Positions 1-5,038 of a stretch of DNA of 5,038 bases are shown here, in pieces. A program made the position numbers and the translations under genes. The notes below the pieces were generated by a model. The model was not told the DNA's origin. It was given only the letters and a program-made list of their open reading frames with translations, and did not search any database. How positions within the stretch are numbered: the first letter of the stretch is position 1; every line of letters begins with the position of its first letter. The stretch comes from Candidatus Latescibacterota bacterium (GTDB taxonomy: Bacteria > JAAXHH01 > JACQVL01), in assembly GCA_016209865.1 (NCBI GenBank), contig JACQVL010000196.1:1-5038 (forward strand), written 5' to 3'.

Positions 1-27
1 GCCCTGTGTGGCCGCCCGTGTGGTGTC

Positions 28-47
28 ATTCCCGCGAAGGCGGGAAT
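28..47. repeat. Short perfect inverted repeat of dispersed-repeat type
   Basis: The arms ATTCCCGC (28-35) and GCGGGAAT (40-47) are exact reverse complements around a four-base GAAG loop. The sequence and its flanks resemble a very common intergenic repeat of many bacterial genomes, often mis-translated as a short peptide containing 'REGGNPSS'. Only one copy is in the window, so the repeat identity rests on memory of that type. It ends nine bases before the ribosome binding site of the following gene, so it may lie in that gene's 5' untranslated region. No protein should be read through it. Confidence 0.65.
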
Positions 48-68: not shown

Positions 69-722
69 ATGAAGATCACTTTCTACGGCCACGCGGCGTT
101 CAAGGTCGAAACGAACGGGACCCGGATCATCATGGATCCGTACAAATCGCCCGAGTGCAAGTACGACCCGATCGACGACGAGGCGGACATCGTCACGATC
201 TGCGACAAGGATGAATACCCGTTTCATGCGGCAACAGATGACATTCGGGGAAACTTCGAGGTTCTCTATGGGCTGGACGCGGTCGAGCGGCCACGGACGA
301 TCAAGGGGATCACGTTCCACGGCATCAAGACGTATGAATTAGAAGACAGGGTGCAGCCGAACGCGATGATTCACTTCACGGTGGAGGGGGTCCACCTGTG
401 TCACATGGGGGACTGCGGGATTCGGCTGGAGGAGGAACATATCGCGCCCATCCGGCATGTGGATGTGCTGCTCGCGCTCGCGGGTGGAGAGCGGACGATC
501 GCGTTAGACGCGCTGAAGGACGCGATCGACCGGATTCAGCCGCGCCTGATCATCCCGATGCACTACCGGACGGAGAAGCTGCAGTTCGCAGAACCGGTGG
601 ATGAATTCCTCTCGTACTTCCCCGCCGATGAAGTTGAGCAGAGCGCGTCCTCTTCGGTTGAAATTACCCCTCAGAGTTTGCCAAGCAGTCGCCGGGTGCT
701 CGTCCTCCGGTATGCGCGGTAG
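69..722 (+). CDS. MBL-fold protein, UlaG-like (COG2220), altered metal-binding motif
   Basis: This 217-residue protein belongs, by sequence pattern, to the small metallo-beta-lactamase-fold hydrolases of the UlaG-like/Lactamase_B_3 group. The start MKITFYGHAAFKVE, the strand ending IIMDPY (20-25), ADIVTI (39-44), HMGDCG (112-117), DVLLALAGG (132-140) and IPMHY (162-166) follow that family in order, and the length is normal. The oddity is at residues 45-53. Family members usually carry HxHxDH directly after the 'DIVTxS' strand, but here the chain reads CDKDEYPFH. The four usual zinc ligands of that motif are therefore absent, while His8, Asp23, His112, Asp115 and His165 remain. The frame is intact and the rest is well kept, so this looks like a divergent subfamily rather than a decayed gene. 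Enzymatic activity and substrate cannot be stated. There is no signal peptide, so it is probably cytoplasmic. The start at 69 is supported by AAGGAG seven bases upstream and by family alignment. The gene ends with TAG and converges with the minus-strand gene across a palindromic element. Confidence 0.88.
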   Translation: MKITFYGHAAFKVETNGTRIIMDPYKSPECKYDPIDDEADIVTICDKDEYPFHAATDDIRGNFEVLYGLDAVERPRTIKGITFHGIKTYELEDRVQPNAMIHFTVEGVHLCHMGDCGIRLEEEHIAPIRHVDVLLALAGGERTIALDALKDAIDRIQPRLIIPMHYRTEKLQFAEPVDEFLSYFPADEVEQSASSSVEITPQSLPSSRRVLVLRYAR

Positions 723-2548: not shown

Positions 2549-5038
2549 TCACTTCAGGCGCGGCAACACATCCCCATAACGCCGGATCGCGTCCCGGAAT
2601 CGCGCGGCCGAAACCCAGCGCGTGTTGTCCGTCGAAAGGTACGCCCGGTGCGCTTCATCGTCGGGATCGTGCTCCTCCGGACCGTACGGATACCGCGACA
2701 TGCCGTGGAAGGGCAGCGGCTCGATCGTGGCGGCGGAGGCGGTGTTGAGATCGCCCTCCTTGAGCCACCCGTCGGAGTAGAGGACGTAGTCCCGCGTCCA
2801 GCCCGGACGGAGCGGCGGCAGGGTCGTCGCATCGAAGGTGGCAGTGATTTCTTCGCCGGAGCTGAAGATCGCGTACCGATCGTCGGACGCCCGCAGGAGC
2901 GGGGTCACAGACCCGTAGCGCGTCCGCATTCCCTCGAAGGGCAGCCACTGCTGGGCGGGATCGACGACGGCATACTCGCGCAGGTACGGGCCGGACGGGC
3001 TGTCCCGATACTCCTTAGAGAAGCCCCGGTAGTGCAAATCCGCACGCTGCGGGAAGAGAGGGGTGATCGTCCAGGCGACGGCCGGCTCATCGACGGTGAA
3101 GAACGCCTCGTTCCAGTACACCTGAAGGTTCGTGGTGATGCGAACCCGAAAATCATCCGTCAGGAATTTCCCGGTCAGGTCGACGACGATCGTCTTGTTC
3201 TCGCCCGCCGGGAAGCCCATGAACGGGATCACCGTCTGCCACCGTCCCCGTGCATCGGGCACCTGGAGGGCAGGCCCCATCGCTCTCAGCCCCTCGCGCT
3301 GTGACAACGCCAGGTTCGTGCTCGGCTCGATGGGCATGACCCAGCCGTTGAGGAACAGCCGGATGGCGGTCGCGCCCCTTAGGTCGCCTAAGTTGAGAGT
3401 GATGACGTGCGGCTCAGTCAACCCCTGGTACGCGGTCGGCGCAAAATCCCCCACGTACCGCTCATCCCGCGCGATGAGGAGGGGCAGGACATCGTGTCCG
3501 TGCTCATCGACCGCCGCCCGTGGCCGTCGCGGACGGGTCGCGGTGTGCAACCGGAACGGCGGGAACGGCGGCAGGAGGTATTTTTCATCCACGTACACGT
3601 TCGACGCCGTCGGATGGTCGATGACGAGCAGCTTTAAGGCATCTAAGTAGACCGCGTCCCAGAGCTCCTCGACGATCTGCAGGGTGTACCGCCCGTCCTT
3701 CGGTCTGAGCTGATCCCCCTGGATCTTCACGTAATCGTTGGCGGCGTCCGGAAACGCCGGAGCGCCGGTGTCCGTCAGTGCCCCGATCGCGCTGCGAGTC
3801 ATGAGATGGGTGACGAACGTGTAGCCGCGTCCGTCCCAGGTGTACAGGGACGGGCACGACCCCTTCAGTCGCTGCTGCTCGACGACCCGCTGGTTGACGG
3901 CCGGGCTGACCGTGTTCTGCGGAGTTCCGTTGCTCCAGAACACCCGCAGGACGTCCGCATTCGGGCGTGAGCCAAGCCCGAAGTGCGTGACCGGCGCGGT
4001 GACGACCCGACGCTGATACTGGGTCTCCGCGTTGAGTTCGATCGTCGAGCCGATTCCGTACACGTTGTTCTTACTGCTGCCCATCGTCGCGGCCGCGAGC
4101 TGGACATCCAGCCAGTGATGAGTATTCCCCCCCTCGTTGCGGAGGACGCTGAACGTCCCGTCCGGCGTCACCAGCGCGAGGTCGAGGTCGCCATCGTGGT
4201 CGACATCACCGGCCGTCACGGCAGAGAGGGATGGCGGCAACGGCGGCAGGAGGGACGACGCATCCTCGAACCGTCCATTTCCCAGGTTGCGGAGCAGACG
4301 CGCGCCTGACGCGGCAGTCCCGGATGTGCCCACGACGACGAGGTCGAGAAACCCGTCGTTATCGAAGTCGAGCGGGACGGCGGACTGCGCCTTGAGCCTC
4401 GCACACAGCCTGGCCAGGATCACCGACGTGCTGTCCTGCACGAATATCCGCCCGTTCTGGTTCCAGGACAGCGCGCACGACGGCGTGCCCGCGCCCGCTA
4501 CGACGAGGTCGAGAAATCCGTCGTTGTTGTAGTCCCCCGCCGCCACCGCGTCAGCCGGCGGCAGTCCTCTCAACCCGAATCGCGCCGTCCAATCGGCCAT
4601 CTTCCCCTGCCGGAGGTTACGGTAGAGGCGGTGCCGTCCCGTCCCATCCGCCACGACGAGGTCGAGCGCGCCGTCGTCATCGAAATCCCCGAATGCAGCG
4701 GCCCGGCTGTCCATGCCCTGGCGTCCGACGTCGGCCTGGGCAGTGGCCTCCTCGAACGTGCCATCCGCACGGTTCCGGTACAGATGATCCGCATGGTCCT
4801 CCGCACTTGCTAAGAAGAGGTCAAGGTCGCCGTCGTGGTCGAAGTCGGCGAAGAGGGCGGCCACCCCTCCGGCCCCACTCCCAGGGGATCGGGGGTCAGG
4901 GGTCAGGGATCGGAAAATCAGGCGAGAAGAGCTGAGGACAAAGCCCTTGCGTCCACGATTCTGATACAGCCCATTAGGGCCATTCCGATTGATGACGTAG
5001 AGGTCCTGCAGGCTGTCGTTGTCCACATCGGCGAACAC
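2549..5038 (-). CDS. FG-GAP/VCBS and ASPIC/UnbV (CRTAC1-like) protein, N-terminus outside window
   Basis: The last 829 residues of a large protein are present; the start lies beyond base 5038, because the window edge falls just before an FG-GAP calcium loop. Numbering from the edge, six DxDxDGxxDL-type loops are seen at 4, 65, 118, 169, 224 and 278, each followed by LYRN-, LLRN- or LRN-like text typical of beta-propeller blades in FG-GAP/VCBS proteins. About 305-390 matches an ASPIC/UnbV domain (GIGSTIELNAETQYQRRVV, HFGLGSRPNADVLRVFWSNG). From about 394 to the end is a long region with no named function: CPSLYTWDGRGYTFVTHL, DGRYTLQIVEELWDAVYLD, and near the end RYGSVTPLL, GWTRDYVLYSDGW and EPLPFHGMSRYPYG. 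I recall similar C-termini in CRTAC1-like proteins of Acidobacteriota and candidate phyla. No transmembrane helix or type IX tail is visible at this end. The likely role is an extracytoplasmic binding protein; ligand unknown. A G-rich repeat is embedded in the first linker. The gene ends with TGA. Confidence 0.88.
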   Translation of the reverse strand: MFADVDNDSLQDLYVINRNGPNGLYQNRGRKGFVLSSSRLIFRSLTPDPRSPGSGAGGVAALFADFDHDGDLDLFLASAEDHADHLYRNRADGTFEEATAQADVGRQGMDSRAAAFGDFDDDGALDLVVADGTGRHRLYRNLRQGKMADWTARFGLRGLPPADAVAAGDYNNDGFLDLVVAGAGTPSCALSWNQNGRIFVQDSTSVILARLCARLKAQSAVPLDFDNDGFLDLVVVGTSGTAASGARLLRNLGNGRFEDASSLLPPLPPSLSAVTAGDVDHDGDLDLALVTPDGTFSVLRNEGGNTHHWLDVQLAAATMGSSKNNVYGIGSTIELNAETQYQRRVVTAPVTHFGLGSRPNADVLRVFWSNGTPQNTVSPAVNQRVVEQQRLKGSCPSLYTWDGRGYTFVTHLMTRSAIGALTDTGAPAFPDAANDYVKIQGDQLRPKDGRYTLQIVEELWDAVYLDALKLLVIDHPTASNVYVDEKYLLPPFPPFRLHTATRPRRPRAAVDEHGHDVLPLLIARDERYVGDFAPTAYQGLTEPHVITLNLGDLRGATAIRLFLNGWVMPIEPSTNLALSQREGLRAMGPALQVPDARGRWQTVIPFMGFPAGENKTIVVDLTGKFLTDDFRVRITTNLQVYWNEAFFTVDEPAVAWTITPLFPQRADLHYRGFSKEYRDSPSGPYLREYAVVDPAQQWLPFEGMRTRYGSVTPLLRASDDRYAIFSSGEEITATFDATTLPPLRPGWTRDYVLYSDGWLKEGDLNTASAATIEPLPFHGMSRYPYGPEEHDPDDEAHRAYLSTDNTRWVSAARFRDAIRRYGDVLPRLK
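4172..5029 (-). repeat. Coding array of six FG-GAP calcium-loop repeats
   Basis: Loops lie at 4994-5029, 4811-4846, 4652-4687, 4499-4534, 4334-4369 and 4172-4207. On the plus strand four of them share the recurring text GAGGTCGAG followed by a CGTCGT or CCATCG block. The starts are spaced 61, 53, 51, 55 and 54 residues apart, one propeller blade each; the first spacing is the longest. More copies probably continue beyond the window. Confidence 0.85.
4884..4912. repeat. G-rich repeat with G-quadruplex pattern inside the FG-GAP gene
   Basis: On the plus strand, G-runs at 4884-4887, 4891-4895, 4899-4902 and 4906-4908 are separated by three-base ATC or TCA spacers, followed by ATCGG. This fits the standard G-quadruplex pattern and looks like a dispersed GGGGTCA-type repeat. 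It is translated on the minus strand as SLTPDPRSP (residues 44-52 of the partial protein), which does not fit the FG-GAP consensus. Confidence 0.65.

Follow-up and report, generated by a model that had tools for sequence, protein, structure and literature searches.

A conserved non-canonical subfamily of TM0207-type MBL-fold proteins with a replaced HxHxDH motif and a glutamate at the fourth coordinating histidine

Proteins of the metallo-beta-lactamase (MBL) fold family coordinate two metals through five His and two Asp residues (PMC7846560). In the standard scheme, Zn1 is bound by residues 116, 118, and 196 and Zn2 by residues 120, 121 or 221, and 263 (PMC7785958). TM0207 of Thermotoga maritima (PDB 1VJN), a member of PF13483, is the nearest solved protein to the gene product described here; beta-lactamase activity has been reported for it, without an assigned physiological role (PMC7504333). 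The UPF0173 metal-dependent hydrolases (TM1162, Igni18; PRK00685.1) also bind two metals via five His and two Asp (PMC7846560). Departures from this ligand set have been described. The fourth coordinating His is an acid in CmlA, a diiron MBL-fold enzyme (Glu377), and in the iron-binding protein 3BV6 (Asp184) (PMC7846560). In INTS9, HxHxDH has become NYHC; three of the four motif ligands are lost, and the protein has been described as incapable of coordinating metal (PMC7980224).

The window, meaning the whole stretch of DNA that was analyzed, is an entire contig of 5,038 bases from a draft genome (3.75 Mb, 356 contigs). It contains a gene for an MBL-fold protein in which this motif is replaced. 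The features used below are as follows.

56 to 61, + strand: AAGGAG, a likely ribosome-binding site 7 bases 5' of the ATG, read from the sequence
69 to 722, + strand, stop codon included: gene for an MBL-fold protein (217 aa, PF13483), from its open frame, Pfam score, and likeness to 1VJN
201 to 227, + strand: codons 45 to 53, CDKDEYPFH replacing (S)HxHxDH and longer by about two inserted residues, from alignments and row counts
225 to 227, + strand: His53, the kept last His of the motif, an invariant column in alignments A3 and A4
336 to 338, + strand: Glu90, standing where the fourth coordinating His ('TYHD') would be, from row counts
402 to 404, + strand: His112 of 'HxGD', conserved and a non-ligand by homology, from the alignment and the ligand set of PMC7846560
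411 to 413, + strand: Asp115 of 'HxGD', kept, the bridging Asp by homology, invariant in the subfamily
561 to 563, + strand: His165 of 'PMHY', the kept last coordinating His, invariant in the subfamily

The gene starts with the ATG at position 69 on the + strand. In a Pfam search, the 217-aa protein matched PF13483 (Lactamase_B_3, the TM0207 branch) over positions 1-160 of the 160-position profile with 120.9 bits, against a curated cut-off of 24. An AlphaFold2 model built with 21 sequences reached a pLDDT of 93.8, and its structural comparison with 1vjn_B gave a Z of 26.9 and an rmsd of 1.6 across 187 residues. The lowest confidence in the model falls on the rebuilt loop (blocks of about 84-86 pLDDT, residues 41-60). 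The Pfam score, the pLDDT, and the likeness to 1vjn_B together make the MBL fold secure, and the earlier note, which had assigned this fold from the DNA sequence, was right in this respect. Judged from the profile match and the predicted structure, the product is a single-domain TM0207-type MBL-fold protein.

TM0207 resembles it in fold and length, is about 35% identical to it from end to end, but has SHQHFDH and TFHD where the window protein has CDKDEYPFH and Glu90. The UPF0173 proteins share the fold with a Z of about 19-20, and their HxGD and PMHY segments align; the window protein, however, misses the cut-off of the UPF0173 equivalog PRK00685.1 (NCBIfam), scoring 55.2 bits against 144.

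A REP-like palindrome, CATTCCCGCGAAGGCGGGAAT, lies directly 5' of the MBL-fold gene at window positions 27-47; it was found at about 75 sites in the genome at up to 2 mismatches, while its reversed control gave 0. On the 3' side, strong inverted repeats occupy positions 729-829, between two convergent genes, and may be either a terminator or a further repeated palindrome. The convergent gene (849-2477, - strand) encodes a secreted-looking protein of 542 aa that carries Dockerin_1, Cohesin, and FlgD_ig above their curated cut-offs in one chain, with Laminin_G_3 scoring slightly below its cut-off. An FG-GAP / UnbV_ASPIC repeat protein (2549-5038, - strand) is interrupted by the contig end.

The motif was compared with 86 relatives lying outside the non-canonical groups of a 105-row alignment. 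HxHxDH is present in 84 of them, the exceptions being SREHEDH and SHENPGH, so the departure seen in the window protein is far beyond chance. The presence of CDKDEYPFH in place of this motif at 201-227, reported in the earlier note, is thereby confirmed. That note took all four motif ligands to be substituted. His53, however, falls on the fourth motif ligand in every alignment made, preceded by an insertion of about two residues, and its column is His in 85 of the 86 canonical rows. Three of the four motif ligands are therefore replaced: His by D48, His by Y50, and Asp by F52 in the numbering of alignment A4, although the register of residues 45-52 varies between alignments. His8, Asp23, His112, Asp115, and His165, named in the note as kept, were all found where it placed them. 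His112 is no metal ligand by homology (PMC7846560), though, and a further loss was overlooked: the 'TYHD' His, present in 85/86 canonical rows, is Glu90 here.

Compared with a canonical two-metal MBL hydrolase, the window protein thus lacks HxHxDH and the TYHD His and has the bridging Asp and the last His. By alignment, the kept members of the ligand set are His53, Asp115, and His165, with His112 outside the set. Mapped onto the standard scheme, the Zn1 residues appear to be lost or changed, whereas Zn2 would retain two of its three residues, and the bridging Asp would also be left. A frameshift or misread as the origin of the altered motif was considered and rejected: inspected by eye, the other two frames around 195-240 contain no HxHxDH, and conserved relatives exist.

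Relatives were first surveyed in a broad sample of 384 genomes, about 70 of which had relatives, mostly canonical. Two proteins from one genome of this sample (G331) had a replaced motif together with further features common to the window protein. A profile search of the phylum of that genome (84 genomes) then gave ten full-length motif-less relatives in nine genomes, a phylum different from that of the window genome.

Subfamily genomes: G331 (two copies), G395, G396, and G399-G404
Subfamily proteins: L194-L202 and L205

All ten read SS[AL]TD[RE]xH, and the window protein is 27-42% identical to them. Position 90 is Glu in all eleven proteins, positions 23 and 115 are Asp, and positions 53, 112, and 165 are His. 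The ten also share 'NAM' and 'TIxLDxL' with the window protein. The SSxTD[RE]xH text itself is absent from it; CDKDEYPFH is one residue longer and has the acid and the final His in common with that text. An Asp or Glu adjoining position 48/49 is common to all eleven; the second motif His is either missing or changed to Tyr. A canonical relative from the same phylum (L203) reads SHSHSDH.

The earlier note's interpretation was borne out in part. Its proposal of a non-canonical subfamily holds: ten homologues without HxHxDH likewise have Glu90, His53, Asp115, and His165, fall into a single clade with the window protein, and evolve under purifying selection. The canonical motif is thus not universal among homologues with matching flanks. 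Conservation of the exact CDKDEYPFH text, for which the note had looked to homologues, was not seen in the other ten, and the loss of all four ligands did not hold up.

The distribution of the subfamily beyond these genomes was also searched. No homologue of the window protein was found in 15 other genomes of its own phylum, and no relative in the viral collection. A contig scan that included CDKDEYPF as a pattern gave canonical relatives only, among the best 80 alignable matches. Searching the phyla of four further genomes (G225, G055, G158, and G195) with the subfamily profile yielded no new member; canonical proteins were recovered from the phyla of G225 and G055, a single one came from that of G195, and that of G158 gave no match, though under the strict threshold used there a blank result says little. 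No description of the subfamily was found in open-access papers, most subscription journals being outside the scope of the literature search.

The motif and ligand columns were removed before phylogenetic trees were built, so that shared loss could not create the grouping. The window protein and the ten relatives formed one clade in a tree of 102 rows (SH-aLRT 97) and again in a tree of 43 rows (bootstrap 99, SH-aLRT 98). The highest identity of the window protein, 45%, is to a canonical protein of family f72, but forcing it together with this nearest canonical group was rejected (p-AU 0.031). The branch to the G331, G395, and G396 members is long (2.1). In an earlier tree, which used all columns and included just two members of the subfamily, the grouping was less strongly supported (79/90). 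The clade is well supported, if not beyond doubt.

Among six sequences of genus g336, dN/dS was 0.04-0.13, and the motif codons differed only synonymously. The computable comparisons among G331, G395, and G396 gave 0.07-0.15, with dS near saturation in several. These values cover the group of ten homologues, the window gene having no close relative for such a comparison. The range of 0.04-0.15 within the group shows that the subfamily proteins are functional. In genus g336 (L207, L208, L210, L215, and L216), the subfamily gene lies directly 3' of a same-strand Peptidase_S15/PepX_C hydrolase gene, with PhyH and molybdopterin-oxidoreductase genes farther along; these neighbors were identified with Pfam at L207 and matched through sequence starts at the other loci. 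Because the neighbors differ in the remaining members and at the window gene, no function was inferred from this context. One genome (G403) carries the subfamily gene twice, once intact and once truncated (L206 / L217, contig G403:C36).

Other branches of PF13483 also lack HxHxDH. L103, L117, and L193 group together with L185, L187, and L190, while L183, L189, and L192 stand apart and have also lost residues 23, 53, and 115. HxHxDH has thus been lost more than once in the family. Another degenerate member, L204 (G388, from the phylum of G331), reads SHENPGH and has Gly for the TYHD His and Asn for the PMHY His.

The protein probably binds metal in a different way or has a different job, because about half of the pocket is kept and a Glu replaces a ligand His. 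With both His and the Asp of the motif lost and the fourth coordinating His changed to Glu90, the two-metal site has most likely been dismantled. The Zn1 site would be gone, and at most one metal ion would be held by His53, Asp115, and His165, aided by Glu90 and possibly by a new acid at 48/49. Loss of the two-metal site would leave a mononuclear enzyme with altered chemistry or a metal-dependent binding protein. Our main reading, to which we give a probability of roughly 45%, is therefore that of a small, selected, non-canonical TM0207-type subfamily with one of these two roles rather than that of a two-zinc hydrolase. Residues 53, 115, and 165 and Glu90 are fixed in 11/11 proteins despite 27-42% identity, and the existence of a motif-less subfamily, its clade support, the low dN/dS, the confident fold, and the precedent of a Glu in CmlA are also consistent with a single metal. 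That precedent is partial. CmlA beta-hydroxylase (4JO0) and 3BV6 have an acid for the fourth His, as the window protein has Glu90, but they bind two irons, belong to a different branch of the superfamily, and are reported as differing at that His, with no other loss of motif ligands described, whereas here most of the motif is lost too. His53, Asp115, and His165 might also be kept for folding or ligand binding. In addition, the motif text of the window protein is unlike that of the other ten, and the dN/dS values come from homologues.

The main rival, which we hold to be a real if lesser prospect, is a pseudoenzyme with a metal-free pocket, the fold persisting as a ligand-binding or scaffold protein. 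Three of the four motif ligands and the fourth His are lost, a loss on the scale of the one that accompanies the inability of INTS9 to coordinate metal (PMC7980224), and purifying selection suits a binding role equally well as an enzyme. INTS9 and CPSF100 are pseudonucleases that, like the window protein, lost HxHxDH and retained the fold; they are, however, eukaryotic MBL/beta-CASP proteins paired with an active partner, and none is known for the window protein. Every member of the subfamily has the remaining ligands and Glu90, but the motif-less L183, L189, and L192 lost 23, 53, and 115, a difference that tips the balance slightly toward metal. A new single-metal or iron/manganese site made of His53, Glu90, Asp115, His165, and an acid of the rebuilt loop, with a reaction new for the fold, would be a more specific outcome and is unlikely. 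We think it improbable that Cys45, Asp46, Asp48, and Glu49 of the inserted loop, with Glu90, substitute for the lost ligands in a rebuilt two-metal site. All eleven proteins do share an acid adjoining 48/49, and 3BV6 and CmlA have an acid where the fourth His would be (PMC7846560). Cys45 and Asp46, suggested earlier as ligands, are nevertheless either missing or changed to Ser in the ten relatives, so they are unlikely to serve as ligands throughout the subfamily. The second motif His is lost or has become Tyr, and the loop is where the model is least confident. That the gene is an ordinary member which has decayed or been mis-sequenced is very improbable and largely refuted by the conserved subfamily. 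The scan, within its best 80 alignable matches, held no exact CDKDEYPFH match, none of the 15 other genomes in the phylum has the gene, and the contig is short, but the frame is open behind a ribosome-binding site, a similar change with Glu90 occurs in ten genes elsewhere under purifying selection, and the contig bears the palindrome that is repeated in the window genome. HxHxDH is present in all four remaining PF13483 proteins of the genome, so a general assembly fault can be dismissed.

On the alignments and trees, this is a real, conserved, non-canonical subfamily of the known family PF13483 that spans two bacterial phyla. Repeated loss of the motif in PF13483 makes a single finding less surprising, yet the set is useful for comparison. 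Annotation by family profile labels the subfamily as MBL-fold hydrolases although most residues of the catalytic site are lost. The coordinated change of His to Glu, together with the rebuilt motif, would offer a clear test of whether the MBL fold may be re-purposed around half of its metal site.
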